Assembly (NCBI GenBank): GCA_947454705.1
Contig: CANGKZ010000008.1
Coordinates: 88,162-152,161 of the forward strand
Source: Verrucomicrobiota bacterium
Lineage (GTDB): Bacteria > Verrucomicrobiota > Verrucomicrobiia > Limisphaerales > UBA9464
Direction: 5' to 3'
Length of the DNA stretch: 64,000 bases
Shown here: one piece after another, positions 43,120 through 64,000 of the stretch
Layout of the letters: every line of letters starts with the position of its first letter
How positions within the stretch are numbered: position 1 is the stretch's first letter
The notes under the pieces: model-generated
Databases searched by the model: none
What the model was told of the DNA's origin: nothing
The model's input: the letters and a program-made list of their open reading frames with translations, nothing else
Program-made: the position numbers and the translations under genes

Positions 43120-46100
43120 ATGGCTCAACGGCGTTTCCTCCCCAGCTTTGCACGCTCCGCGTTCGTGCTGCTCCTGATCGTTTCGGGCGTCATCCAACCC
43201 GGCGGGCTGGATCGCTTGATGGCGCTGCCGCCGACCGCCGCTCCGTTGCCGATCCGACTGACCCAGCCACCAGTCGAACCGCCCGGCCCCTCCTCGCGTC
43301 GATCCGGCGTCACGGTCAGCGAGATCCATTATCATCCCGCTCCCCGGACCGATGGCCGCGTCGTCGAGTTCATCGAAGTCTACAACTCGATGCCCTGGTT
43401 CGAGGAATTGGGCGGATGGAAGATTTCCGGTTCGGTGGACTTCACCTTCCCTGACGGATTCGTCCTGCCCTCGCAGGGATACGTCACCATCGCGGCATCG
43501 CCGGCCGACCTCGTGACCGTCACTGGTGCGACCAACGTCCTCGGCCCCTATTCCGGATCGCTGCCCCATTCCTCGGGTTCGCTGAAGCTTCGTCATCGAA
43601 CCGGCGCCGTCTTCGGCGAATACACGTACGCCGACCGTGCCCCGTGGCCCGCTTCTGCGGATGGCTACGGTCCCTCCCTGGTCCTCGCGCGACCGAGCAT
43701 CGGCTCGCTGAATCCGGGAGCGTGGGAGCCAAGCCGCTTCTCCGGAGGTTCCCCTTCCCGTCCCGAGCCGACCAATGCCGCAGCGCTCCCGCCGGTACGC
43801 ATCAATGAACTGCTTGCGCCCTTGCCCAACGGCGAAGGCGACGCGGGGTTTGTGGAGTTGATCAACCTATCCGATGCGACGGTGACTCTGGCAGGGATGA
43901 CGCTGTCGGATGTCTCCACCGCGGATCGCTACGTCGTCCCCAAAGGCATCACGCTTTCAGCCGGAGCCCGGCGAACGTTCACCGCCTCACAACTGGGATT
44001 CAGTCCGTCCTATCAGGGCGGAACATTGTGCCTGCGGGACTCCGCCGGCGGTGCGGTGGTGGATCTCGTTCGTTATGGACCGCTGGAACCCGGGATCGCT
44101 TGGGGACGAATTCCCGATGGTGGCCCGCGCTTTGGCCGGCTCGCTGTGGCAACTCCAGGCATCGCCAACGCCAATGCCCTCGAGTCGCCGGTGATCTTCA
44201 ACGAAGTGATGTACCACCCGCCTGGCAGCAATCCGGACGACGAATTCATCGAGCTGCACAACCCGGGCAGCACTGAGGTGGATCTCTCCGGATGGAAGGT
44301 CGGTGGCGGAATCTCCGCGACCCTGCCCGCGGGAACTCGTCTGGTCGCGGGCGGCTATGGAGTCCTCACTCGCAACGCGGAGCGTCTGCTGGCGATTCAC
44401 CCCAAGCTCAACGCATCGGCCATCCTCGGCACGTTCACCGGCGGATTGTCCAATTCCGGAGAATCGCTCGAACTGCTCAAGCCCGTGTCGGTGATCGAAC
44501 CCGGAACCAACACCTCGGGAACCATCTTCACCACCAACCAGGTCCTCGTGCAGGTGGAGGAGTTCACCTACGGCACCGGCGGACGCTGGGGCAAGTGGAG
44601 CGACGGCGGAGGCAGCAGCCTCGAATTGATCCATCCGCGGAATGACCGCCACGAAGCCGCGTCGTGGGCCGACAGCGATGAAACCCACAAGTCCGACTGG
44701 GTCACCGTCGAAAGCACGGGCAACCTCGACAACGGGGCCTCCGATGCGCCCACCGGCCTCGAACTCCTGCTCTACGGCCCGGGCGAATGCCTCTTGGACC
44801 AAATCGATGTCATCTCTGTCAGCAACACCAATCTGATCGCCAATCCAGGGTTCGAATCGGGCACCAACACCTGGGCCTTCCAGGGAAACCACGGCGCCAC
44901 CAGCCTGGAGGAGGGTGAGGGATTTCAGAGCCCGCGTTCGCTTCACGTGCGGGCTTCCGGAGCCGGCACCACCGGACCCAACCGGGTTCGCACCGCCTTC
45001 AGCGTGCGACCCACTACCGGAAAAACCGGAACGATCCGCGCGAAGGCCCGCTGGTTGAAGGGATCCCCCAACCTTTTGCTCCGCCTGCACGGCAACTGGC
45101 TCGACGCTTCGACCAACATTCTGGCCACGCGCGATTTCGGCACCCCCGGCGCACCGAATTCACGGCGAGTACCAGATCCGGTACCTTCGATTTCCGGGGT
45201 TCGACACGACCCCATCCTTCCCACCCCCTCGCAAGCCGTGCGCGTGGTGGCGCATGCCGGATCGGCCAATGGACTCAACCGTCTCTCCCTCTTCTGGCGC
45301 GTGGATCCCACCGGCGCGACCAACGAAGTGGTGATGAGCCATCACGGCGGTGGCGTGTATTCCGGTGTGATTCCCGGACAGACCAACGGGGCGATGGTGG
45401 CGTATCGCATTGAGGCCACCGATGCCGGCCCGGCCGGAGCCGCCGCGTCCTTTCCCTCCGATGCCCCGGTTCGTGAGTGCCTCATTCGCTGGGGCGACAC
45501 CCACGTGACCGGAGCCCTGGGCGGGTATCACGTGTGGATGACCCAGGCCACGTTCAACCGTTGGTCCAAGCGCGAGAAACTCAGCAATGATCCACTCGAT
45601 GTCACCGTCGCCTATGGCAACAGCCGCGTGATCTACAACGCCGGCGGCCAATACAGCGGCAGTCCCTACCACGCGCCGAGCTACTCGACACCCAACTCCG
45701 CCAACTGCGATTACCTGCTCAGCTACCCGGCGGATGACTCCCTCCTCGGCGAACAGGAAATGGAACTGCTGCAGCCGGGCAACGGCGGCGGCGACGCCAC
45801 CTGCCAGGGGGAACAACACGCCTACTGGCTGGCCGAGCAATTGGGAATCCCCGCCTGCCACCGTCGTCCCATCCTGCTTTACGTGAATGGCGTTCGACGC
45901 GGCATCGTGTACGACGACGCCCAGCAGCCCGGCCGGGAAATGGCCGCGCAATGGTTCCCCGACGATCCCGACGGCGAGGTCCACAAGATCCAGCTCTGGT
46001 TCGAATTCGATGCCACCGGATCCTCGTTCAACAACGTCGGCGCAAACCTCGCGCGTTACACCACGACCGGCGGGGTGAAGAAAACGGCGCGCTACCGCTG

Positions 46101-48576
46101 GACCTGGCCGCTTCGCGCGTTCGGCGAGGATCCCAACAACTACACCAATCTCTTCCGCCTGGTGGACGCCGTGAACACCTCGGCCACCGGCGATCCCTAC
46201 ACGCGCACGCTTCTGCACGCGACCGATGTGGACAACTGGTTCCGCACCCACGTGGTGGAACACCTGGTCGGAAACAACGACAGCTACAGCTACGGCGGCG
46301 GACAAAACATGTACGCCTACAAGCCGCAGTTCGGGCCGTGGAAGCTGATGATCTGGGACATCGACTTCGCCTTCTCCTCGGCCGATGCACGCAGCCAGAT
46401 GGACAACATTGGCGGACGCGAAATCGGACCCGTCAACACGCACCCACCCTTTACCCGCATTTACTGGCAGGCGATTCAGGACGCCGCCAACGGGCCGCTG
46501 CGTGCCGATCGCAGCAATCCGATCATCGATGCCCGCTACAACGGAATACGCACCAACGGCGCCACCACCATCAGCTCCGGATCGAACATCAAGAGTTTCA
46601 TCGCGAACCGGCGTTCGTACCTGCTCGGCCTCCTGACCAACAAAGCCGCGCCCCTGTCGTTCGTCATCAATGGCGGAACCGATTTCACCGCCACGGTCAG
46701 CCCGTTGACGTTGAGTGGCACCGCTCCGCTTGAGGCCCGCAAGATTCTCCTCAACGGATCTCCGATCGAAGTTACCTGGACCACTCTCACCAATTGGACC
46801 TATCGCGTGGGACTCAAGCCCGGGACGAACAGCTTCGTCCTCGCCGGACTCGATGCCTCGGGGAACGCACTCACCAACCATCCAGCCAGCCTGAACATCC
46901 GGTTCGATGGTGCGATTGCCGACCCAACCGGCCTTGTCGCCATCAACGAAATCCTGCCCGTTCCATCGGTCCCCGGAACCGGATTCATTGAACTCGCCAA
47001 CCGTTCGCCGTTCCCGGTCGATCTCACCGGATGGCGGCTCGACGGCGTCGGGTTCACCTTCCCCCCGGGCAGCATCATCAACGGCGGTGGATTCGGCGTG
47101 CTGGTCGAGGACCCATTCCAATTCGCCGATCTGTTCTCACCCTTGATCGCCCCGCTGGGCGTCTATCCCGGCCGCTTGAGTCCCAAAGGTGAAACCCTGC
47201 GGCTCGTCGCCCCGGGCGCGCCGCCACTCGCAGACGTGGTGGTCGATACGTTGACCTACGGCACCTCGTTCCCCTGGCCTGATCAGCTCGCGCTCGGCGC
47301 ATCGCTTCAACGCACGACCATCAAGCCGGATCACAACCGCGTCGCGGGCTGGAACGCGGTCGACCTCACTGCCGGCTCGAGTCCGGCATCGCTGGCCAGC
47401 CCCGCGCAGGCCAACACGCTGACCCCGCTTGCCACCTCGTGGCCCAACCTGCGAATCAACGAACTCCTCGTGATCAACCAGACCGGCGCCACCGACTCCA
47501 CGGGACAGCGCGGCGCGTGGTTGGAGATGTTCAACGACGGCCCGGGCACGGTCACCCTGACCAATCTCTTTCTCTCCATCGATCCGACCCAGTTGCTGCA
47601 GTGGCGATTCCCGCTCGCCGCCAAGATTGCTCCCGGCGGTTTTCTCCAGGTGTGGCTCGATCAGCGCTCCACGATTTCCACCGCCACCGAACCCCATGCG
47701 AACTTCAAGCCCGAGGCCTCGGGGGGAACGATCTACCTGTCGCAGGTCTCCAATGGCCGCGCAGTGGTGCTCGATTACCTCACCTACGGCCCGGCCACGC
47801 GCGACGTCGCCATCGGGAGTCTTCCGGATGGATCACCGGAGAACCGCCTCCTCCTCACCCGCCCCACCCCGAATGCGTCGAACTCCGGCACCGCCTCGCC
47901 GCTCCGGGTTCGGATCAATGAATGGATGGCTCGCAATGATTCCACGATTCGCGATCCCGCCGACGGGGCCTACAACGACTGGTTCGAACTCGTGAATCTC
48001 GGAACCGACCCGGCACAGCTCGGCGGATGCTTCCTTTCCACGTCCACCAACGACTGGCAGCAATTCCTGATTCCCGCCGGCTTCAGCATTCCCGCCGGCG
48101 GACGCCTCCTCGTCTGGGCCGACAAAAAACCCGGCGCCAACACCGGGCTCGACGCCCTCCACACCAGCTTCAAGCTTTCTGCCTCCGGCGGAAACCTGGG
48201 CCTTTATGCGCCCAATGGAGTGGCAATCGACCTGATCCATTACGGCCCGCAGATCGCCGATGTCAGCGAAGGTCGCGTGCCCGAGGGAGGCGACACCATC
48301 CTCGCGCTCCCGAGCGCGAGCCCGGGCTCCGTGAACCAGCCGCCCGCACCGGTGGTGTTCGCCATCCAGGTGGATCGAGAGTTCGCCACGGTGTCGTGGT
48401 CGACTATTCCAGGATTGGTCTATCAACTGGAAGGAGCCCCGGACCTTACAGGGCAGCGTTGGTCAGCCGTGGGAACACCGCAGACCGCCGGGGGAAGTAC
48501 GCTGACCGCCATCGAGCCGCTCCGCGTCGGGGACGCCAACGGCGCCCGATTCTACCGCGTTCGCATCGCTCCGTAG
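43120..48576 (+). CDS. Large exported lamin-tail / CotH protein
   Basis: An 1818-residue extracellular protein with a signal peptide (FARSAFVLLLIVSGVIQPGG). Six lamin-tail domains begin near residues 64, 226, 358, 1273, 1444 and 1596, each with a strand like SEIHYHP, RINELL or FNEVMYHP and a later FIEL(H/V/A)N. A CBM-like unit starts near 572 (LIANPGFESGTNTWAF). The centre, about 800-1120, is CotH-kinase-like: WMTQATFNRWSKRE, YLLSYPADDSLLGEQEM, NMYAYKPQFGPWKLMIWD with the IWDIDFAF Asp pair near 1078. The end is a beta-sandwich tail. It may bind, and perhaps phosphorylate, surface or matrix material. Convergent with the DUF1501 gene. Confidence 0.93.
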   Translation: MAQRRFLPSFARSAFVLLLIVSGVIQPGGLDRLMALPPTAAPLPIRLTQPPVEPPGPSSRRSGVTVSEIHYHPAPRTDGRVVEFIEVYNSMPWFEELGGWKISGSVDFTFPDGFVLPSQGYVTIAASPADLVTVTGATNVLGPYSGSLPHSSGSLKLRHRTGAVFGEYTYADRAPWPASADGYGPSLVLARPSIGSLNPGAWEPSRFSGGSPSRPEPTNAAALPPVRINELLAPLPNGEGDAGFVELINLSDATVTLAGMTLSDVSTADRYVVPKGITLSAGARRTFTASQLGFSPSYQGGTLCLRDSAGGAVVDLVRYGPLEPGIAWGRIPDGGPRFGRLAVATPGIANANALESPVIFNEVMYHPPGSNPDDEFIELHNPGSTEVDLSGWKVGGGISATLPAGTRLVAGGYGVLTRNAERLLAIHPKLNASAILGTFTGGLSNSGESLELLKPVSVIEPGTNTSGTIFTTNQVLVQVEEFTYGTGGRWGKWSDGGGSSLELIHPRNDRHEAASWADSDETHKSDWVTVESTGNLDNGASDAPTGLELLLYGPGECLLDQIDVISVSNTNLIANPGFESGTNTWAFQGNHGATSLEEGEGFQSPRSLHVRASGAGTTGPNRVRTAFSVRPTTGKTGTIRAKARWLKGSPNLLLRLHGNWLDASTNILATRDFGTPGAPNSRRVPDPVPSISGVRHDPILPTPSQAVRVVAHAGSANGLNRLSLFWRVDPTGATNEVVMSHHGGGVYSGVIPGQTNGAMVAYRIEATDAGPAGAAASFPSDAPVRECLIRWGDTHVTGALGGYHVWMTQATFNRWSKREKLSNDPLDVTVAYGNSRVIYNAGGQYSGSPYHAPSYSTPNSANCDYLLSYPADDSLLGEQEMELLQPGNGGGDATCQGEQHAYWLAEQLGIPACHRRPILLYVNGVRRGIVYDDAQQPGREMAAQWFPDDPDGEVHKIQLWFEFDATGSSFNNVGANLARYTTTGGVKKTARYRWTWPLRAFGEDPNNYTNLFRLVDAVNTSATGDPYTRTLLHATDVDNWFRTHVVEHLVGNNDSYSYGGGQNMYAYKPQFGPWKLMIWDIDFAFSSADARSQMDNIGGREIGPVNTHPPFTRIYWQAIQDAANGPLRADRSNPIIDARYNGIRTNGATTISSGSNIKSFIANRRSYLLGLLTNKAAPLSFVINGGTDFTATVSPLTLSGTAPLEARKILLNGSPIEVTWTTLTNWTYRVGLKPGTNSFVLAGLDASGNALTNHPASLNIRFDGAIADPTGLVAINEILPVPSVPGTGFIELANRSPFPVDLTGWRLDGVGFTFPPGSIINGGGFGVLVEDPFQFADLFSPLIAPLGVYPGRLSPKGETLRLVAPGAPPLADVVVDTLTYGTSFPWPDQLALGASLQRTTIKPDHNRVAGWNAVDLTAGSSPASLASPAQANTLTPLATSWPNLRINELLVINQTGATDSTGQRGAWLEMFNDGPGTVTLTNLFLSIDPTQLLQWRFPLAAKIAPGGFLQVWLDQRSTISTATEPHANFKPEASGGTIYLSQVSNGRAVVLDYLTYGPATRDVAIGSLPDGSPENRLLLTRPTPNASNSGTASPLRVRINEWMARNDSTIRDPADGAYNDWFELVNLGTDPAQLGGCFLSTSTNDWQQFLIPAGFSIPAGGRLLVWADKKPGANTGLDALHTSFKLSASGGNLGLYAPNGVAIDLIHYGPQIADVSEGRVPEGGDTILALPSASPGSVNQPPAPVVFAIQVDREFATVSWSTIPGLVYQLEGAPDLTGQRWSAVGTPQTAGGSTLTAIEPLRVGDANGARFYRVRIAP

Positions 48577-48616: not shown

Positions 48617-50077
48617 TCAGGCGAGCAGTTCCTTCACCAGATTTCCGTGGAGATCGGTGAGGCGGTAGTCGCGACCCGCGTGACGGAAGGTGAAGCGTTC
48701 GTGGTCGAACCCGAGCAGATGCAGCAGCGTCGCGTGCAAGTCGTGCACGTGCACCTTCTTCTCCGCTGCCGCGAATCCAAATTCATCGGTGGCTCCATGC
48801 ACGTAGCCGCCGCGGACGCCACCGCCTGCGAGCCACATGGAGAAGCCGTGATTGTTGTGATCACGCCCGTTCTGCTTGCCCGCATTGGCTCCCGGAGTCG
48901 GCAGCTCCACCGTCGGTGTCCGACCAAACTCGCCGCCCCACACCACCAGGGTGTCCTCCAGCATGCCCCGCTCCTTCAGGTCGGTCAGCAGCGCACCGAT
49001 CGCGCGATCACACTGGCCCGCGAGACGACGATGATTCGTTTCGAGGTCGTCGTGATTGTCCCAAGGCTGTCCCGCCCCGTGCCAAATTTGGACAAAGCGG
49101 ACGCCGCGCTCGAGCAGACGCCGGCCAATCAAAATCTGACGCGCCTGAACCGAGTCGCCGTAGCGTTGCCGGACCGATTCCGGCTCGCGCATGATGTCGA
49201 ACGCGTCTGCCGCATCCATCTGCATGCGATAGGCCAGCTCGAAGCTCTGGATCCGCGCATCGATTTGCCCATCCCGCGCCCGCGCGGCGCGATGCTGCTC
49301 GTTTAGTTTTTGAAGCAGATCGAGCTGCGACCGCTGTTCCTTCCGCGAGGCGTGATGGCTGGTGATGTTCTCAATCAGCTTCTCCAGCTCGGTGTGTTCC
49401 GAGTTGATGTACGTGCCCTGGTACACCCCGGGAAGAAAGCCCGACTGCCAGTTCTGCGATTCCTGAATTGGATAACCGCCGGGGCACATGGAGATGAACC
49501 CGGGCAGGTTCTGATTCTCGGTTCCGAGGCCGTAGGTCACCCACGATCCCATGCTAGGCCGCGGAAGCCGGGCCTCGCCGCAGTTCATCAACAGCAGTGA
49601 GGGCTCATGATTCGGTACATCCGCCTGCATCGAACGGATCACACACAGGTCATCCGCGTGCTGCGCCGTGTGCTGGAACAATTCGCTGATCTCCAGCCCG
49701 CTCTGACCGTAACGCTTCCAGGAAAAGGGCGAACGCCACGCGGCACCGGTCTTTCGCTCGGTGGCGAAATGAACCGGGATCTCCTTGCCGTGGTACTTAT
49801 CGAGCGAGGTCTTGCGATCGAAGGTGTCCACGTGCGACGGACCGCCGTTCATGAACAGGTGGATCACCCGCTTGGCCTTGCCGGCAAACTGCGGGGCCCG
49901 GGGCGTGAGCGGATTGGTAAAGCTGCCTTCCGAAGCGGTCGCAGGGCTCAAACCGGCGAGGCCGGTGCTGCCGAGAATGGTCGCAAGACCGAGCGATCCC
50001 ATCCCCATGCCGCAGCGGGAGAGAAATTCCCGACGCGTCAGGGCGAGGTGTTCAGGCGAAAAGGTATGCGAGTTCAT
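48617..50077 (-). CDS. Tat-exported DUF1501 family protein
   Basis: A 486-residue protein of the DUF1501 (sulfatase-like alkaline phosphatase fold) family. The Tat signal has LTRREFLSRCGMGMGSLGLA. Then come the family landmarks RVIHLFMNGGPSHVDTFDRK, GLEISELFQHTAQHADD, SMQADVPNHEPSLL, LPGFISMCPGG, VQIWHGAGQPWDNHDD, LVVWGGEFGRTPT, NNHGFSMWLAGGGVRGG. In Planctomycetes and Verrucomicrobiota the gene is usually next to a DUF1549/DUF1553 cytochrome-like partner; none is here. Location periplasmic; activity unproven. Confidence 0.95.
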   Translation of the reverse strand: MNSHTFSPEHLALTRREFLSRCGMGMGSLGLATILGSTGLAGLSPATASEGSFTNPLTPRAPQFAGKAKRVIHLFMNGGPSHVDTFDRKTSLDKYHGKEIPVHFATERKTGAAWRSPFSWKRYGQSGLEISELFQHTAQHADDLCVIRSMQADVPNHEPSLLLMNCGEARLPRPSMGSWVTYGLGTENQNLPGFISMCPGGYPIQESQNWQSGFLPGVYQGTYINSEHTELEKLIENITSHHASRKEQRSQLDLLQKLNEQHRAARARDGQIDARIQSFELAYRMQMDAADAFDIMREPESVRQRYGDSVQARQILIGRRLLERGVRFVQIWHGAGQPWDNHDDLETNHRRLAGQCDRAIGALLTDLKERGMLEDTLVVWGGEFGRTPTVELPTPGANAGKQNGRDHNNHGFSMWLAGGGVRGGYVHGATDEFGFAAAEKKVHVHDLHATLLHLLGFDHERFTFRHAGRDYRLTDLHGNLVKELLA

Positions 50078-54756: not shown

Positions 54757-55266
54757 TTATTTTCCGACTACGATCGCGTTGGGAGCCGAGTACAGATCCG
54801 GACCCGAGGGCGGATGATAGCGCACCACCACGGTGATTCCGGTCATGCGAGGACGAGTGGTGCCCCAGTTCAACGTCAGCAGATACCCCATGCCCAACGC
54901 AGAGTTTCCTGCCACTGGAGCCAACTGCTGCGGATTAAAACTCCACACCTTCAACGGCTGCGCGGCCGGGATCTCCGCCTCGGGAACGGCGCCATCGAAC
55001 ATCAGCACATCGATCCGGCCCTGGCGCATTTCGACGCCGCGGGCTTTTCCATTCTGGGTCAGATAGAACCGGATTCCGAATCCATCCGGCCCGGGGCGCG
55101 AATCGAGATTCATCGCGTTCGGATTGCCGAACAGATGGATCTCCTCGATGCCGCCGCTGCCCCCGCTGCGACCTGCGCCACGGGTGCTCGAACACCCCGC
55201 CGCAACCAGCGCTAGCCCGACGAGACCGACAACGACCGTTCGCCGGACTGGAATCCATCGAGCCAT
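54757..55266 (-). CDS. Small lipoprotein downstream of the giant secretin
   Basis: A 169-residue protein starting at ATG 55266 with an n-region MARWIPVRRTVVVG, a hydrophobic stretch and the lipobox VAAGCSS. After a Gly/Ser-rich linker the mature part is about 130 residues of mixed beta sequence (EEIHLFGNPNAMNLDSR, GFGIRFYLTQNGKARGV, RIDVLMFDGAVPEAEI). It begins 20 bases after the secretin stop on the same strand, so the two are probably co-transcribed. It is not an evident pilotin, but a lipoprotein beside a secretin gene makes such a role worth testing. No family recognised. Confidence 0.75.
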   Translation of the reverse strand: MARWIPVRRTVVVGLVGLALVAAGCSSTRGAGRSGGSGGIEEIHLFGNPNAMNLDSRPGPDGFGIRFYLTQNGKARGVEMRQGRIDVLMFDGAVPEAEIPAAQPLKVWSFNPQQLAPVAGNSALGMGYLLTLNWGTTRPRMTGITVVVRYHPPSGPDLYSAPNAIVVGK

Positions 55267-55286
55267 GCTACGAATCGAACCCGATC

Positions 55287-58200
55287 TCACTTGGTCTCCT
55301 TCGGCGTGAGCACGGGAGCCGGCGGACGCACACGGCGCAACGGCGCGTTGGTGGAATACAGCGGCTCGACCAACCGACGCTGCATGGCATCGCCCTTCAT
55401 CAGGCTCTTGAACCCGGTTCCATCGATCTGCTCGCGCGTCACCTCATCGGGATCCTGCAGCGCGGTCGCGTTCTGCCCGTTTTCCAGCACCTGCGGAGTC
55501 AGGAGAATGAGCAACTCCTTGCGCTCACGGGTCACCGAGGTGGACCGGAACATGGCGCCGAGGTACGGAATGTCGCCAAGCCAGGGCATCTTCTTCACCC
55601 GGCGATCGTCGGTGGTGGAGATCAAACCGCCGATGATGATGGTCTGTCCGCTCTGCGCGCTGACCGTGGTGTTGGCCTTGCGCTGATTGATGATCGGAAC
55701 GGTCGAGGACTTGTTGATCTGCACGTTCGAACTGCTGATGGCGCTGTTCGTGGTGCCGATCTCCATCTTCACGAATCCGTCCTGACTGATCTTCGGCGTC
55801 ACGGTGAGGTTCACACCCACGTCCTCGTATCGGAACGAGGTGGTGAGGTTGTTCTGCGCATCGAGACGGCTCTGGTCGATCAGCGGAACGCGTTGACCAA
55901 TGTTGATACTCGCCGGCTTGTTGTCGGCGGTGACGATCTGCGGACGGCTGAGCACTTCGAGGCGTCCCTGCTCCTTCAACGCGCGAAGCATGAAGCTGAA
56001 GTCGCTTCCGGTGACCGCAGCCGAGTAGCCGCCCAGGGTCTGGGCCTGATTGGCCACACCAAAATCGGTACCGGTGTTGTAGTTGTAGCCGCTCTGTTTG
56101 CCGGTGTACTTCCACTCCATGCCGAGGTCCGAATTGTTGTCGAGGGTGACTTCGGCGAGCAGCACCTGGATCAGCACCTGCGGCTGGGCGCGGTCGATCT
56201 GTTCGATGATGTTGCGAACCTGGTCGAAGTAACGCTGGTTGGCCGACAGCAACAGCGTGTTGCTCATCGGCTCGGAGACCACGGCAACTTCCTGGTCCAG
56301 CATCCGCTCCACGCCGACCGCGGCATCCGCCCCGAGGGCCTGGATCAGCTTCTGACGTTCCTGATCGAGGAAGTTGCGGATCGCGGTGGCCACGTCGGAG
56401 GCTTGGGAATTGCGAAGTCGGATGACCTCGGAACTACGCTCGTGGGCCTGGCTGGAATCCAGCGAATCGATGATCTCCGACACCAGCTTCACGTAATGAT
56501 CCGTCCCGCCAACCAGCAGGCTGTTGGTGCGGGGGTCGATGGTGACGGTGAGAGCGGTCTGTTCCGCTGTACCCAGAGTTGCGCTGGCGAGCTGCTCGTC
56601 CGGTCCGCCGGATCCATCGCCCGTGGCCGGGCGCACCAGTGTGTACTGGATGGAACGCTGACCCGCAGCGGCTGCGGTCGGCGTCATCTTGAACAGCTGC
56701 GTGATCAGCGTGGCCATCTGACGCGCGTCCGCATTGCGCATGGCGAACACCTTGATCTTGGCCTGCTGCGGCGAGCTGGCATCGAGACGCGTGATCACCT
56801 GCTCGAGCAGGCCCATGTAATCCACCGGCGCGGACACAATCAGCGAGTTCATTCGCGGGTCCGGCGTGATGAGCACCGCTTCCTTCAGCGCGGCGGTCAC
56901 CAGTTCGCGTCCGCCCGTGGTGCGGGTGATGAACTGCAGCACCGACTGCGCGTTCGGGCTCTGCTCATTCAGCGGAGCCGGCTTGGTGTTCAGGGCGGTG
57001 TTGAGAATGGTGGAGAGCGCATCGGCCCGCGCGTACTGCAACGGGAACACGCGGATCTCGTTCACCTTGGCCACCTGGTCGGTGTCGAGTTTCTGGATGA
57101 GTTCGCCAATCCGCTTGGCATCGGTCTCCCCGCAGGACACCACGATCGCATTGATGCGTTCGTCCGCGCTCACCGTGATCGGGAGGATCTGGTTCGGCAG
57201 GTTCTCGCGGAACAATCCCTGAACCGTGGTGGCGATCTTGCGGGCGTCCGCCTTGGCCAGCGGGAACACATGGATCGCGATGCCGGTTTCGGTCGGTTCG
57301 GCATCGAGCCGTTCCACCAGCGAGGCCACCGTGCTCATGTCTTCCACGGTCGCACCGATGAGCAGCGCATTGACCCATTGATCGGCCACAATGGTGATCG
57401 GATCCACCGGCTCACCCTTCACCCGCGGCGGGCGATTGGCGAAGATCGGCTGGAGCGTGGTCTGCATCTTCAACGCAGTGGCTTTCTTCAACGGGAAGAC
57501 GCGGAAGTTCAACCGGGCAAACACGCTGTCCCCGTCCAGCTGAGGCAGAAGGCGATCCACCAGTTCGAAGGCTTCCTTGCCGCCGGTGACGAGAATGGTG
57601 TTCACACGATCATCGGCGATCACCGTGGCCGGAACACTGCGTTGATTCGCATTCACCGCGATCGAATCCGCCGTGCGCTTGGCCTGAAAGAACTGCTGCA
57701 GCGTCGTCGCCAGTGTGGAGGCGCGGGCGTTTTTCAGGGCGTAGAGCTTTACGTCGGCCGTGGCGGCGAGGTCCTTGCTGTCAATGCGCTTCACCACTTC
57801 CCGCACGATGGTCAGGTTCTCCGGGCTCGCGCTGACGATGAGCGTGTTGCTGCGGGCATCGACGCTGATCGAGAGGATGTCGCGTCCGCCTGCGGCAGGC
57901 TTTCCGTTGGCTCCGGGAAGCATTCCGGGGCGGTAGAGGCCCTGCTCCACGAGCGACTTCAGAATCGAAGCCACGCGCTGGGCGTCGGCGAATTCGAGGG
58001 TGAAGGTTTCCAGCACGCCGCCGGCGATGGTCGGTTCCTGGTCGAGTTTCTCGAGCAACGTCCGAATGAGTTCGAGGTTCTCCTTGCTGGCGGAAACCAC
58101 GAGCGCGTTGTTCAGCGAATCGGGCTCAATCTTGATCTGCTCGCTCGGAAGCGGGCTTTGTCCCGGCAGCGCCTGCGCGCGGAAGCGGGCGGCAAAGATG

Positions 58201-61200
58201 CTTTCCACCATGGTGGCCACGCGGCCGGAATCGTTGTGCTTGAGCGGAAGCACGGTGAGCGGGAGCGACGGATTGTCCTGCTTGGCGTCGAGACGGGTGA
58301 GCAGGTCGTCCAGCGTGCGGTTGTCTTCCTGGCTGGCGGCCACGAGCAACGAGTTGCTCCGGGAATCGGGCAGAATGATCGGCTTGTTGCGCTGAACATC
58401 TGCGGTGCGGATCGCGGCGATGCGCTGATCAAACAGCGTGCCTAGGGTGCTCGCCACCACGCGGGCGTCGGCAAACTTCAGCGGAATCAACCGCACGCGA
58501 CCGCTCAACGCCGGGGCCGCCTGATCGAGCTGCTTGGCCAGCGTCTGCACGAGTTCAAACCCTTCGCGCGGACCGCCCACCAACAGGGCGTTGCTGCGTT
58601 GGTCGGCCATGACGATGACCTTCAGGGCATCCGCCTGACCGCGATTCAACGTGGCCCGCTGCGTCATGCGCGCGTCCATCAACTTCTGCAGCGTGGGGGC
58701 CACGACGTTCGCATCGGCATGTTCCAGCGGGATCAGGGCGATGTCGCGGAGATCAAACGGAAGCTTCTGATCGAGCTGCTTGAGCAACGCCTCGACGATG
58801 CCGAAGGCTTTGCTGTTGCCAGCCACGATCAGGGCACTGGTCCGGGCATCGACGGTGATCACCGGACGATCCTCATTGCGAAGAGCAGCAGCGCGGGCGC
58901 CGGTGTAGAGGTCGGTCAGGATCTTCTGAACCGTTGCAGGATCGGCGTGTTCGAGCGGGTAAATGCGAACCGTTTCCAATCCCGAGGCGGCGGGAATATC
59001 GAGCTGTTCAATGATCTCGGCGATCAGGGGCAGATTGTCGCTCCGCGCGGCGACCACGAGGATGTTCGACTGATCATCGGCCTGGATGGTCAGGGCCGGA
59101 CGCACCTTCGGGGTTTCGTTGCGGACCGACTTGGTGGCATCGCGCAGCGCACGCAGGCGGGTAACCTGGGTGGAAAGTCCCTCGGTGCCCGCCACGGCAT
59201 TGCCCTCGGCGAACACCGACTGGAGCAGCGGCATCACACGCGTGGCGGAGGCGTGCTTCAAACGGAAGAGACGCACATCGGTCAGGAAGCCCTTCAGCTC
59301 GCGGTCCATGTCGCGAATGATTTTCAGCGCCAGGGTCACGCCCTCGGGCTGACCGGCAATGATCAACGTGTTGCTGCGGGCATCGACCGCGACATTCATC
59401 GGATGCACCAGCGCCTTGCCCTGATCGGCGGGTTCTCCGTTCGGACCGGCCGGGCCGGCGGCGAGCTGGCGTCCCTGCGCAAAAATGGTGGTGAGGGTCT
59501 GGGCCACCGTGGCGGCATCGGCATGTTCCAGCGGCACGAGCCGCACGCCCACTCCATCCAGCACGGGCACGGAATCCATCATCTCCACAATCGCGGTCAA
59601 ACCCCGGAGGTTGTCCGGGGTCGAGGTGAGGATCAGTCGATTGCCACCGCCGTTGCCACCGGCCGGATCGGGCGCGATTCGAATCGGCTGGGACAGATCG
59701 AGCACCAGATCCTCATCGTCCGCATTCTTGATCCGAAGCCGGCGAACCTGGTCCTGAAGTTCACGCGCTTCGGGAGTCGTCTCCCCCTGCGCACCCGGCT
59801 TCAGCATTCCCTGAAGCACGGTCGCGAGCTGGGCCGCATTCGCGCGTTTCAGCGGAACAATTCGAACCTCGGCATCCACGTTGGCGGACGGCTTGTCGAG
59901 CGACCGAATCATCTGCTCCACCTGCTCCGCCGCGGTTCCCCGGGCGATGACCAGCAATCCGCGGGAACGCGCATCCACCGCCACGCTGATCGGCTCGCCG
60001 GGACGGGCGGCGTTCAATTGCGTGACGTACTGCTGCACCATTGGGAGGGTCTTCTCCGGCGACGCATTCTTCAGCGGCACCATCCGGAAGCCGACCAGGC
60101 TGTTCTGCCCGGCGTTGTCGAGCTGCTTGATGAGCGACTCCATCAGCGCGAAGTCGGTGGGACGCGCGCGAACGATGATGCTGCGCGTACGCGGCTCGGC
60201 CACCACGGTGATCCGGTTACGCGAACCGGTCTGGCCCGGAACCGGCTGAGGGGCGGGCTGCCCCGGCTGCTGGGGAACGCCGAGCGAATCCTGACGCAAC
60301 AACTCGGTCAGCGTCCGCGCCACCACCACCGGGTCGGCATCCTTGATTGGGAACAAACGGAACTCCGACTCGTGCCCGTAGAAATTCGAGGACAGCTCGC
60401 TGATCAGGCGGTCAATCGCATCCAACTCCTGCGCCGGACCGGACAGCAGCACTGCGTTGGCCGACTTGTCGATGGCGATGACCACTTCAGGGGGACCCGA
60501 TGGCGCATTCGTCGAGGCTGTAGCCACGGTGTTGGTCCCGGTTGCCGCCGGAACCTTGTCGGTCACCCGCACCGCGGTTCCCGACATCTGCGGATAAATA
60601 TTCCGAAGCATCTCGGCCATCTGCTCGGCGGTCATGCGGTCCAGCGGACGCAACCGCACCTGAATCCCGCTGTCCTTGCCGGTCTGATCCAGCCGGGCCA
60701 CGAGGTCCTGGATCTGCGCGAGATCCCCATGACGGGCAATGATGGTGAGCGAGTTGTTCGAGGGATCCGCCTCGATAACCGGACGATCGCCGCGCGGGCG
60801 GTCCTCGAACAGCGCTTCCAATTTTGAAACCACTTCGTACGCCTTGGTCTTGCGCAGCCAGATGAACTGCACGTCGCGGTCCGAACGCTCCGGGGCCTTG
60901 TCGAGCGTCGGGAGAATCTTCTCCACCACTTTAAAATGAGCCGCCGTTGCCGAAATGATCAGGCTCTTGGAGCGGTCATCCACGGTGACACTGGCAGGAG
61001 GCACGCGACGCGTCTCTCCGCCGGAAGAAGTGGCCAGGTTGACGCGGAGGTTCCGGGTCACCGATTCCAGCAATTGCTGAATGATGGCCGACACTTCCTT
61101 GGCGGTTCCGTTCTCGAGTTTGTAAATGCGGACTTCGATGTCCGTCGATCCGCCCCCGCCCTCTTGGTCGAGGTCGTGCACGATCTTCATCACATCCTGC

Positions 61201-64000
61201 ACGGCGTTGGTCGGTCCGTTGATCAACAGGCTGTTCGCTCCGGCCACGGCGGTGACGTTGATCCGACGTGAGGCGGCGGGAACGGCGCGGGTGGCTAGGG
61301 CCTTGTTGACGGCATCGGCCACATCTTCGGCGCGGCCCTTGTTGAGCCGAACGGTTTGGATGACGTTCTGGCCCTCGGGTCCGGGCTGATCGAGTCCCTT
61401 CACCATTTCCTCCACGCGCGGGAGCAAGTTGGCCGGAGCTTCGACCACGAGCGAACGATCGTTGCCACCGGGACTCACGACGAGTCGCATCGAGGGCTCG
61501 GTGCTGGCGACCTGCTTGGCGTACACCTGACTGATCATCGTGACCAAGGAGGCGGCGGAGGTCCGCTCCAGCGGGAACACCTTCATCTGCCGGCCACCGG
61601 ACTCACCGGACTTCTGCAACAGTTCCACGATGTCGGAGAGCGCCTTCAACTGGTTCTCGCTGCCCGCGACAATCAATTGGTTGCTCGGCGCATCCTCCAC
61701 GATCAACGGCTCGCTGGTTCCGAGCTCCGCATTATTCCGGGACTGATCCTGGTACACGGTGCGAACCTTGGCCGCGATCTCGGAGGTGTTCCGATCCTTC
61801 ACCGCCAGCACACGCATCGAGCGGCCGGGCTGGGATCCGAGACTCGCATCGAGCTGTTCGATGATGACCGAGGCGGACTGCAATTCCTTGGGATCTCCCG
61901 TGGCGATAATCGTGCGGGTCTTGGCATCGGTGACCACGCTCACGCGCTTCTGCGGACGACCGTAGGCGTCGTACCGAACCAAGGCGGTGCCGAGGATTTC
62001 CACCACCTTGTCGGGATCGGCGGACTTCACCTTGAACACACGGGTCGAGGCGCTCTGCGCTCCAACCTTGTCCAGCTTGCGGATGATCTCCTCCACCACC
62101 GCGAGCTCATTGGTGGTGCCGGTGACGATCAGGCGATTGGCGCTGCCATCGGGGAGAATGATGGTGTCGGCCGACGGAGCCCCGGGACGGCTGCGAGACT
62201 GTTCCTGATACAACGTGCGAACCGTGGCGGAGAGGTCGGCAGCGTTGGCCGAGGTCAGATCGTACACACGGGTGTCGCGGCCGGTCGGGACGGAGTTGGT
62301 TCCGCGAAGCTGGGCGACGATCGATTCAATCTCGGCGAGATGATTGGACCGGCCGGTGACGATGAACCGGGCGTTGCGCGAATCGGCGATGATTCGGGCA
62401 TCGGCCGAATCCGCCGTGTCACGTCCACGCCAGTGATCGCGATACAACTGCAGGACCAGCGGCTCCAAGCGGGCGAGTTCCTCCGGGGTCCCGAGATCAA
62501 TCATCCGGGTCTCGCGCGCCGCGCGGGCCACCTGGGCCGATTGCAGCTCGGTCACGATCGATTCGATCAATTTCAACTGCCCCTCGTTGCCCGCGAGGAT
62601 GAGCTGGTTGCTTTCGGCATCTTCGAGAATCAGAGCTTCGGAAGTCCCGAGCTCGGGCTGGCTCTTCACGCGGTCGTTGTAAAGCTGACGCACGCGCGGC
62701 GAGAGCGTCACCACCTTGCCCTGCTGGAGGGTGAGCGTCTTCATGCGACGCTCGGGCTGGGCGCCGAGCGATTGATCGAGCTGCTCAATGATCAGCGACA
62801 CGCCCTGCAATTCCTTCGGATCCGCCGTGACGATCAGCGTGCGGGTCTTGGAATCGACCGACACCGTGGCGCGTTTCTGCGGACGGCCGTAGGCGTCGTA
62901 ACGAAGCAACGACGCAGTGAGGATCTCCGCCACCTTGTCGGGATCCGCTGACTTGATTTTGAAGACGCGTGCGGACGATCCCTGCGCGCTGACCTTGTCG
63001 AGTTTGCGAACGATGTCCTCCACCGCGGACAATTCATTGGTGTCGCCCACCACGATCAGCCGATTGCCGCCGGCATCGGGCGTGATGAGGGTATCGGGCG
63101 CCTGCGCGCCGAGGCGTCCCTTGGCTTCCTCGGTGTAGAGCGTCTTCACCGTGGCCGCGAGTTCGACGGCGCTGGCGGTGGTGAGATCGAGGATGCGGGT
63201 CTCGCGATGTTCCGTGCGCGCCTTGCCGGTGCCGATCTGTTGCAGGATGGCTTCGATCTGCTTCAGATGCTCGGGCTTGCCGGTGACGATCAAACGTCCG
63301 CCACGGGGATCAGGAACGATTTGGGCATCGGCCGGATCAGTGTCCTGCCGATCCTTCCACTGAGCCTGATACAATTGCTGAACGAGCGCCTGCACGCGCT
63401 GCACATCGGCCGCGGTGCCAACTTCAAAGGTGCGGGTCTCGCGCGCCGACTGGGAGGGATCACCGTTGGTCTGCAGGCTGGCAAAGATGCCATCGAACAT
63501 CTTCAACTGATCCGCACGGGCCGAAACAATCAGGCGTCCGGTGCGGCCATCGCTGACGATCTGAGCATCGGCCGAGCCGAGCTGCGGATTGCTTCCCATC
63601 TGGTCCTGGTACAACTGGCGCGCGATCGGCAGCACGCGCTGCGCTTCGGCCAGGCGTCCCAAATCGAAGGACTTGGTTTCGCGCGTCGGACGCACCTGGG
63701 TTTCCAGCGTGGTGACGATTTGGCGGATCGAGGCCGCCTGTTCCTCGGTGCCCTGAACCAGCAGCCGCGTGCCCGAGGCATCGGCATACATCGTGGCGGG
63801 ACGAAGGGTCTTGCCGCGGGATTGCTCGGTGTAGATCTGGGTGACCTGGGGAAGCAACTCGGTGGCGGTGGCGTTCTTCAGCTCCACCGTGTGCAGCTCG
63901 CGAACGCCTTGGTCGGGCTTGGCATCGAGCGTCGAAAGCACGGTCTCCAACTGCCCCATGAGCGAGGCCGGCGCCATCACGATGAGCCGCTTGGTCGCGG
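55287..64000 (-). CDS. Giant secretin with about 31 N-type domains, 5' end beyond window
   Basis: A continuous minus-strand frame of over 2,900 codons, open at 64000. Thirty-one full units of 70-110 residues, plus part of another, repeat the secretin N-domain pattern: beta strand (VRLIPLKFAD), helix (ARVVASTLGTLF), strand around a D-R-N triad (VDARSNTLIVSA) and a helix closing in EQLD. The last unit leads to PQVLIQVLLAEVTL near residue 2598 and then the secretin barrel, about 2660-2830: LSRPQIVTADNKPASI, GVNLTVTPKIS, SGQTIIIGGLIS, PWLGDIPYLGAMF, ELLILLTPQVL. Outer-membrane pore of T2SS/T4P type; usual length 600-750. The signal peptide must lie outside the window. No frame breaks are visible. 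Confidence 0.95.
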   Translation of the reverse strand, partial: ATKRLIVMAPASLMGQLETVLSTLDAKPDQGVRELHTVELKNATATELLPQVTQIYTEQSRGKTLRPATMYADASGTRLLVQGTEEQAASIRQIVTTLETQVRPTRETKSFDLGRLAEAQRVLPIARQLYQDQMGSNPQLGSADAQIVSDGRTGRLIVSARADQLKMFDGIFASLQTNGDPSQSARETRTFEVGTAADVQRVQALVQQLYQAQWKDRQDTDPADAQIVPDPRGGRLIVTGKPEHLKQIEAILQQIGTGKARTEHRETRILDLTTASAVELAATVKTLYTEEAKGRLGAQAPDTLITPDAGGNRLIVVGDTNELSAVEDIVRKLDKVSAQGSSARVFKIKSADPDKVAEILTASLLRYDAYGRPQKRATVSVDSKTRTLIVTADPKELQGVSLIIEQLDQSLGAQPERRMKTLTLQQGKVVTLSPRVRQLYNDRVKSQPELGTSEALILEDAESNQLILAGNEGQLKLIESIVTELQSAQVARAARETRMIDLGTPEELARLEPLVLQLYRDHWRGRDTADSADARIIADSRNARFIVTGRSNHLAEIESIVAQLRGTNSVPTGRDTRVYDLTSANAADLSATVRTLYQEQSRSRPGAPSADTIILPDGSANRLIVTGTTNELAVVEEIIRKLDKVGAQSASTRVFKVKSADPDKVVEILGTALVRYDAYGRPQKRVSVVTDAKTRTIIATGDPKELQSASVIIEQLDASLGSQPGRSMRVLAVKDRNTSEIAAKVRTVYQDQSRNNAELGTSEPLIVEDAPSNQLIVAGSENQLKALSDIVELLQKSGESGGRQMKVFPLERTSAASLVTMISQVYAKQVASTEPSMRLVVSPGGNDRSLVVEAPANLLPRVEEMVKGLDQPGPEGQNVIQTVRLNKGRAEDVADAVNKALATRAVPAASRRINVTAVAGANSLLINGPTNAVQDVMKIVHDLDQEGGGGSTDIEVRIYKLENGTAKEVSAIIQQLLESVTRNLRVNLATSSGGETRRVPPASVTVDDRSKSLIISATAAHFKVVEKILPTLDKAPERSDRDVQFIWLRKTKAYEVVSKLEALFEDRPRGDRPVIEADPSNNSLTIIARHGDLAQIQDLVARLDQTGKDSGIQVRLRPLDRMTAEQMAEMLRNIYPQMSGTAVRVTDKVPAATGTNTVATASTNAPSGPPEVVIAIDKSANAVLLSGPAQELDAIDRLISELSSNFYGHESEFRLFPIKDADPVVVARTLTELLRQDSLGVPQQPGQPAPQPVPGQTGSRNRITVVAEPRTRSIIVRARPTDFALMESLIKQLDNAGQNSLVGFRMVPLKNASPEKTLPMVQQYVTQLNAARPGEPISVAVDARSRGLLVIARGTAAEQVEQMIRSLDKPSANVDAEVRIVPLKRANAAQLATVLQGMLKPGAQGETTPEARELQDQVRRLRIKNADDEDLVLDLSQPIRIAPDPAGGNGGGNRLILTSTPDNLRGLTAIVEMMDSVPVLDGVGVRLVPLEHADAATVAQTLTTIFAQGRQLAAGPAGPNGEPADQGKALVHPMNVAVDARSNTLIIAGQPEGVTLALKIIRDMDRELKGFLTDVRLFRLKHASATRVMPLLQSVFAEGNAVAGTEGLSTQVTRLRALRDATKSVRNETPKVRPALTIQADDQSNILVVAARSDNLPLIAEIIEQLDIPAASGLETVRIYPLEHADPATVQKILTDLYTGARAAALRNEDRPVITVDARTSALIVAGNSKAFGIVEALLKQLDQKLPFDLRDIALIPLEHADANVVAPTLQKLMDARMTQRATLNRGQADALKVIVMADQRSNALLVGGPREGFELVQTLAKQLDQAAPALSGRVRLIPLKFADARVVASTLGTLFDQRIAAIRTADVQRNKPIILPDSRSNSLLVAASQEDNRTLDDLLTRLDAKQDNPSLPLTVLPLKHNDSGRVATMVESIFAARFRAQALPGQSPLPSEQIKIEPDSLNNALVVSASKENLELIRTLLEKLDQEPTIAGGVLETFTLEFADAQRVASILKSLVEQGLYRPGMLPGANGKPAAGGRDILSISVDARSNTLIVSASPENLTIVREVVKRIDSKDLAATADVKLYALKNARASTLATTLQQFFQAKRTADSIAVNANQRSVPATVIADDRVNTILVTGGKEAFELVDRLLPQLDGDSVFARLNFRVFPLKKATALKMQTTLQPIFANRPPRVKGEPVDPITIVADQWVNALLIGATVEDMSTVASLVERLDAEPTETGIAIHVFPLAKADARKIATTVQGLFRENLPNQILPITVSADERINAIVVSCGETDAKRIGELIQKLDTDQVAKVNEIRVFPLQYARADALSTILNTALNTKPAPLNEQSPNAQSVLQFITRTTGGRELVTAALKEAVLITPDPRMNSLIVSAPVDYMGLLEQVITRLDASSPQQAKIKVFAMRNADARQMATLITQLFKMTPTAAAAGQRSIQYTLVRPATGDGSGGPDEQLASATLGTAEQTALTVTIDPRTNSLLVGGTDHYVKLVSEIIDSLDSSQAHERSSEVIRLRNSQASDVATAIRNFLDQERQKLIQALGADAAVGVERMLDQEVAVVSEPMSNTLLLSANQRYFDQVRNIIEQIDRAQPQVLIQVLLAEVTLDNNSDLGMEWKYTGKQSGYNYNTGTDFGVANQAQTLGGYSAAVTGSDFSFMLRALKEQGRLEVLSRPQIVTADNKPASINIGQRVPLIDQSRLDAQNNLTTSFRYEDVGVNLTVTPKISQDGFVKMEIGTTNSAISSSNVQINKSSTVPIINQRKANTTVSAQSGQTIIIGGLISTTDDRRVKKMPWLGDIPYLGAMFRSTSVTRERKELLILLTPQVLENGQNATALQDPDEVTREQIDGTGFKSLMKGDAMQRRLVEPLYSTNAPLRRVRPPAPVLTPKETK
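61594..62520 (-). repeat. Downstream copy of a 927-bp coding duplication
   Basis: Encodes four N-domains that match, in order, the four encoded by the next 927 bases upstream. RYDAYGRPQKR is the best marker, present once in each copy at a distance of exactly 927 bases (plus-strand CGTAGGCGTC at 61961 and 62888). Confidence 0.75.
62521..63447 (-). repeat. Upstream copy of a 927-bp coding duplication
   Basis: Partner of 61594-62520. Shared anchors are CTCGCGCGCC at 62511 and 63438 and the RYDAYGRPQKR codons. The neighbouring domain nearer the N-terminus (ELGSADAQ-like) resembles the last of each four, so an older third copy may exist. Confidence 0.75.

Follow-up and report, generated by a model that had tools for sequence, protein, structure and literature searches.

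In type II secretion systems (T2SS), the secretin GspD (PulD, XcpQ, EpsD) assembles in the outer membrane as a ring of approximately 15-fold symmetry. It usually carries three N1-type domains (N1 to N3) in addition to N0, which is bound by the HR domain of the partner protein GspC, while the pilotin lipoproteins of these systems are of the GspS or AspS type. Such a protein, with its four N-domains, is about 650 residues long (624–657 residues in the solved full-length chains), and PMC6882859 describes a GspD with four N-domains and GspC HR domains at its base that reaches about 20 nm into the periplasm. A table in PMC4827864 gives a mean secretin length of 555 ± 151 residues (n = 5,000). Extra N-domain rings (N0 to N5) are present in PilQ, the 757-residue type IV pilus secretin of Thermus thermophilus, whose six rings reportedly measure about 35 nm in length, the periplasm being about 70 nm wide (PMC4463427, PMC5745081); its authors term the six rings unusual and tie the extra ones to an unusually wide periplasm (PMC5745081). 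It is the largest secretin met in the literature consulted here.

The protein described here resembles the T2SS GspDs in its N0, its N1-type ring domains, its secretin domain and its T2SS operon, and Thermus PilQ in having extra N-domains, but it comprises 44 N-domains and about 3,980 residues. Its size is far beyond the range described for secretins, and it is a conserved, widespread variant: T2SS secretins with about 25–65 N-domains occur in two phyla, with unit-by-unit conservation in the order studied. We found no description of giant secretins in the open-access PubMed Central literature on secretins and T2SS in these phyla. The question of how a secretion machine crosses an envelope with far-apart membranes, as in PVC bacteria, thereby becomes testable: since unit numbers differ between lineages while the order of the units is fixed, the width of the envelope can be set directly against the length of the putative tube.

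Domain organization of the array and its relation to GspD

The stretch analyzed (the window, 64,000 nucleotides) corresponds to G000:C8:88162-152161, G000 being a draft genome of 80 contigs, 5.45 Mb and 95.7% completeness. The array and its neighbour have the following features:

54757..55290, minus strand: gene for a 177-residue lipoprotein, overlapping the end of gspD
55287..63998, minus strand: giant gspD, C-terminal 2,903 codons; the 5' side leaves the window
55485..55982, minus strand: C-terminal secretin (pore) domain PF00263, by Pfam
56190..63941, minus strand: tandem N1-type (beta-alpha-beta-beta-alpha) units 12–42 of 42, by HMM, Pfam and structure model
61611..62537, minus strand: four-unit block, second copy (units 18–21)
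62538..63473, minus strand: four-unit block, first copy (units 14–17), main length-variable zone

The frame at 55287-63998 is single, uninterrupted and open at the window edge, and its 2,903 codons agree with the initial annotation, which had reported an unbroken frame of more than 2,900. In the genome sequence, as read from locus L007, the gene continues beyond the window to G000:C8:155420 and amounts to 3,990 codons if it starts at a TTG overlapping the upstream gene's stop codon. An alternative ATG lies 14 codons after this TTG and opens, as judged by eye, a clear signal peptide; it is the likelier start and gives a protein of 3,976 residues and 428.8 kDa, signal peptide counted. The protein had been noted as more than four times the normal secretin size; it is indeed oversized, but the factor was too low, the product of the whole gene being about seven times as long as the mean secretin.

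The whole gene encodes, in this order, a signal peptide, N0, one N1, 42 tandem N1-type units and an ordinary secretin domain, that is, 44 N-domains (N0 and 43 of the N1 type) for a single pore domain. An HMM grown from the array itself delineated the 42 contiguous units (residues 246–3690); it found no units in 50 shuffles of the 3,990-residue protein and, when applied to the five other secretins of the same genome, one to five units in three of them and none in two. In the window frame, Pfam gave a Secretin_N score of 904.5 bits with 27 stretches passing individually, so that the units are secretin N-domains, and the one C-terminal secretin domain that had been proposed was recovered as PF00263 (171.6 bits, for a cut-off of 27.5). 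The window edge runs through unit 11, and units 1–10, N1 and N0 lie outside. Units 12–42 are wholly inside, hence the first count of about 31 N-domains, which holds for the window and falls short of the 44 of the whole gene. The N1 ahead of the 42 units was recognized from a Pfam stretch and from a profile alignment. As for N0, at about residues 90–160, this copy scores 17.3 bits, below the Pfam cut-off of 27; PF21305 (N0) was nevertheless matched at E <= 0.1 in 20 of 21 giants (best 2.1e-6), and the 21-member profile aligns with N0-N1 of the solved GspD 5wq7 (9e-12).

The assignment of the protein to GspD of a T2SS is firm. Its C-terminal 917 residues passed the NCBIfam equivalog model for GspD (TIGR02517, 437.2 bits versus a cut-off of 351.35) but not that for PilQ (TIGR02515, 259.5 versus 284.35), and among solved chains, the nine closest to the C-terminal part all belong to GspDs (5wq7 at the top, E 3.5e-43), each entry containing 15 chains. 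The middle of the array behaved in the same way: below E = 0.001, a profile of units 14–19 retrieved solely GspDs from the PDB (13 sequences). In an AlphaFold model, these units form six beta-alpha-beta-beta-alpha folds joined by linkers of 2–10 residues, so that each of the modelled units must adjoin its neighbour. The seven best Foldseek matches of this model were GspDs (E down to 2.7e-9); rank 8 was 8co1 (an entry titled type II system, with chain Q1 named type IV piliation protein) and rank 9 again a GspD. TM-scores over the whole six-unit piece were low (0.16–0.24; 0.21–0.24 for the seven best) and the piece, modelled as a monomer, had a pTM of 0.28; the model therefore does not give the orientation of one unit relative to the next, and its inter-unit geometry was not used. 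All tests with a clear outcome pointed to GspD, so that we are not dealing with a new kind of machine.

The T2SS operon and the distribution of giant secretins

It had been stated that no other T2SS gene adjoins the array. This does not hold beyond the window edge: gspE, F, G, H, I, J, K, L and M lie directly upstream of the giant gspD, on the same strand. GspE, GspF and GspG are clear by Pfam; GspG exceeds its T2SS equivalog cut-off (99.3 versus 88.85 bits), and GspE and GspF score best with T2SS models, yet below cut-off. GspH is over the Pfam cut-off, GspI, GspJ and GspK are weak matches, and GspL is PilM-like, PilM being its closest match. A T2SSM match was obtained for GspM in just 2 of 16 relatives (best E 0.0004). 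The gspM gene is found upstream of the giant gene in 18 of the 20 relatives fetched by place. A prepilin peptidase gene is present elsewhere in the genome. No canonical GspC was found: Pfam gave no PF11356 match in the genome.

The GspM-like protein (L127:874-1956; L007:12221-13216) contains a conserved RDxxRPY motif and a proline-rich linker, and its size is nearly constant in 16 relatives (372-column alignment) although their unit numbers differ. By eye, its C-terminal part resembles the HR domain of GspC/PilP, a likeness to which profile searches lent no support; the functions of GspM and GspC may be fused in this protein.

Of 75 related loci, 65 have the gene for the 177-residue lipoprotein next to the giant gene, and it was found in 18 of the 20 relatives fetched by place. 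The lipoprotein is predicted to fold into an Ig-like beta-sandwich (mean pLDDT 88.5); fold searches returned generic Ig-like matches with middling scores and no named T2SS pilotin among the matches listed. It is a possible pilotin-like or stabilizing partner of the secretin.

Within the same family, at least 28 of 50 genomes contain a secretin frame of at least 2,300 residues and at least 36 of 50 one of at least 1,200 residues, among the matches listed; ten of the shorter frames run into a contig end. The giant gene largely comes and goes with gspL of the operon: among the matches listed, a frame of at least 1,200 residues was present in 35 of the 43 family genomes with gspL and in one of the seven without (Fisher p 0.001, a value that serves as a guide only, the genomes being related). 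The exceptions comprise eight gspL-bearing genomes with no such frame among the matches listed, that of G002 running into a contig end, and G044, which has a 1,320-residue frame without gspL. In G014 to G016 the giant gene and gspL are on separate contigs, and no T2SS gene was found upstream of the giant gene in the locus from G014 (L018). Two genomes of the same genus, G006 and G008 (95% complete, about 60 and 90 contigs), show neither gspL nor a giant frame among the matches listed, which indicates that the giant gspD is not essential to the family.

Across the order, frames of at least 2,400 and up to 5,155 residues were found in at least 40 of 144 genomes and at least 14 of 42 families, among the best matches listed. 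The named relatives include Verrucomicrobia subdivision 3, Pedosphaera and Limisphaerales metagenome assemblies. The giant gene is also present in public records under the names Akkermansia muciniphila or Klebsiella pneumoniae (L047, L052, L053, L055, L058 and others); for these metagenome assemblies the names look wrong. In 287 genomes of the phylum outside the order, there were at most 15 Secretin_N matches each, compared with 30 in our genome, for at most 20 candidates scored per genome among the matches listed. Frames of 2,431–6,169 residues were detected (E <= 1e-45) in at least 13 of 292 genomes of Planctomycetota (the phylum label of the G461 record). The 13 copies fetched have 24–63 units, and a gspL homologue lies upstream in 11 of them. 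The longest giant (L126/L127, from the Planctomycetota-labelled G461) has 6,165 codons and 63 units by HMM. G461 also encodes a 4-unit secretin, and at least two planctomycete genomes (G461 and G463) carry a normal-size copy as well.

In a tree of secretin domains, the 33 giant rows fell on one side of a branch and 14 normal secretins of both phyla, with 1–4 units, on the other (support 81/95; 84% of bootstrap trees). On this best tree the giants would have a single origin, although the result is not conclusive. The first tree also contained L128, L129 and three small secretins of our genome, which were left out of the second because of their long branches; the long-branch row L145 was kept. 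One of the 33 giant rows, L099, shows just 8 units because its contig ends there. L128 and L129 are secretins of intermediate size from other PVC genomes (L128:2059-6087 from G332, 9 units, 1,342 residues; L129:3239-7627 from G734, 7 units, 1,462 residues). Like the giants they have multiplied N-domains, and L128 is encoded beside GspE and GspF homologues; however, they are far shorter, and they sit on long branches outside the giants, with an unsure placement.

Unit order and array length

The units of the array are individually conserved by position. All 42 match one-to-one and in order in 20 loci, corresponding to 15 distinct contigs (five pairs represent one contig twice). Orthologous units of L007 and L015 are 54–95% identical, whereas the best match of a unit within its own protein is 24–49% identical, the exceptions (59 and 71%) being inside the duplicated block. 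Units 16 and 20, the most similar pair within the gene, share 71% of their residues and 76% of their DNA positions. Unit 16, which is among the most conserved units, has a predicted beta-hairpin insertion (RYDAYGRPQKR). Loci L093, L103, L108, L110 and L111 failed the motif filter and were read separately, and the unit maps do not include L112, a long contig with many breaks in the frame.

The equal length in related genomes that had been put forward as a check is not found everywhere (24–63 units). Within the order, the variation is located mainly in one zone, units 13–22, which comprises 6, 10, 14 or 22 units in 46 of 60 loci, or in 36 of 46 when contigs present twice (recognized by hand from their length) are counted once. 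Array length therefore changes mainly by gain or loss of a four-unit block. In the remaining loci the zone has 7, 8, 11 or 13 units, so that four is the main step and not the sole one; a strict four-unit rule was discarded on these grounds. The shortest arrays (L024 and L030) and some others differ outside the zone as well. The order of units 28–42 extends to two planctomycete copies, L121 and G461; in L114 it is hardly kept.

Possible arrangements of the array in the envelope

Taken together, we consider it somewhat better than an even bet that this T2SS GspD builds, from stacked rings, a periplasmic conduit of more than 100 nm, perhaps spanning a variable periplasm; the six-ring PilQ of Thermus is a precedent. 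The N1-type ring domain has been multiplied to 43 copies between N0, which would face the inner-membrane platform (GspE/F/L/M), and the C-terminal domain, which would form the usual outer-membrane pore. The units in between would most likely build a stack of rings, each of about 15 protomers, making up one continuous tube through which pseudopilus and cargo could cross at sites where the inner membrane has withdrawn far from the outer membrane. If each of the 44 rings is assumed to contribute about 3 nm, the tube would be about 130 nm long, with a mass of about 6.4 MDa, and its length would shift mainly through the four-unit block. A stack of this kind would rank, to our knowledge, with the longest protein conduits of cell envelopes. 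The claim that the stacked array is far too long for a normal periplasm is borne out, provided that every domain forms a ring. Ring stacking, 15-fold symmetry, tube length and a function in a wide envelope are all inferred for the giant protein; what argues for an ordered stack, and against interchangeable binding beads, is the strict positional conservation of the units.

Several points bear on the width to be spanned. The genome encodes nine TolC-type proteins of ordinary size (frames of 483–556 residues), which argues that the envelope is not uniformly wide and leaves room for a zone of local widening or for a bent tube. Of the three outcomes that had been envisaged for the array (an unusually wide envelope, folding back, or re-use as a binding sleeve), a uniformly wide envelope is thus disfavoured, and so is a sleeve of interchangeable beads, in view of the positional conservation. 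TamB, whose length was considered as a gauge of envelope width, was dropped, there being no TamB match in the genome, and we found no measurement of envelope width for this order in the open-access PubMed Central literature. In Planctomycetes, the periplasm is described as variable and sometimes greatly enlarged (PMC5394234). According to the same source, the crateriform structures that link the membranes in tomograms of Planctopirus sit where the gap is small, which we count against a gap-spanning stack.

Alternatively, only the last few units and N0 of this GspD would form rings, while the others would be a folded-back or spread scaffold binding peptidoglycan, cargo or partner proteins in an envelope of normal width. 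We regard this as rather unlikely, though as the most serious of the alternatives. The normal-length TolC-type proteins speak for it, units 28–42, with their order kept in L121 and G461, could be the ring-forming part, and the GspM-like protein stays at nearly the same size in relatives with differing unit numbers. However, units are conserved by position along the whole length, whereas shuffling or homogenization would be expected of interchangeable beads; furthermore, the linkers are tight in the modelled units, and the six units tested match the ring-forming N-domains of GspD.

All units could also stack into a tube that bends or coils within an ordinary periplasm, serving as a long storage or sorting conduit and not as a gap-spanner. 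The TolC-type proteins also fit this arrangement, and purified Thermus PilQ is reported to be flexible and to hinge between its rings N4 and N5 (PMC5745081). Against it, we know of no strongly bending secretin, and bending should be opposed by the width of the tube and by the stiff pseudopilus within; we hold this arrangement to be distinctly improbable. Still less probably, the machine would export a filament, type IV pilus-like or other, through a long sleeve, for example kin to the planctomycete crateriform structures and fibres, and would not be a protein-secreting T2SS: GspL is indeed closest to PilM, and fibres attach to the crateriform structures of Planctopirus (PMC5394234), but against it stand the T2SS equivalog score of GspG, the best scores of GspE and GspF with T2SS models (below cut-off as they are), and the passing of the GspD cut-off but not of the PilQ one.

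Finally, an assembly or prediction artefact is refuted in practice: the source is an 80-contig draft in which repeats can mis-assemble, and the gene is broken into two or more frames in L046, L079 and L112, but the same gene, with the same order of units, recurs in many independent assemblies, two of the 13 planctomycete giants are on contigs of 3.84 and 3.62 Mb, and the units, only 76% identical in DNA for the closest pair, are too divergent to collapse. In L112 (a 1.08-Mb contig labelled FR-Pedosphaerales-1) the giant gene is split into many frames, probably by sequencing indels; in L046 and L079 it is in two frames.

A broader and more tentative reading, which we would put at somewhat below even chances, is that proteins are exported, in whole lineages of Verrucomicrobiota and Planctomycetota, by way of a continuous secretin tube of 25–65 stacked rings, mostly longer than 100 nm, acting as a ruler across a variable, enlarged periplasm. 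In that same reading, the rings would be distinct and fixed in order, and tube length would be set mainly in quanta of four rings.

Two other genes of the window were identified by Pfam. At 43120-48576 (plus strand), a 1,818-residue protein combines five stretches of lamin-tail domain with a CotH kinase domain. The gene at 48617-50077 (minus strand) encodes a match to DUF1501, a type of protein common in PVC bacteria.
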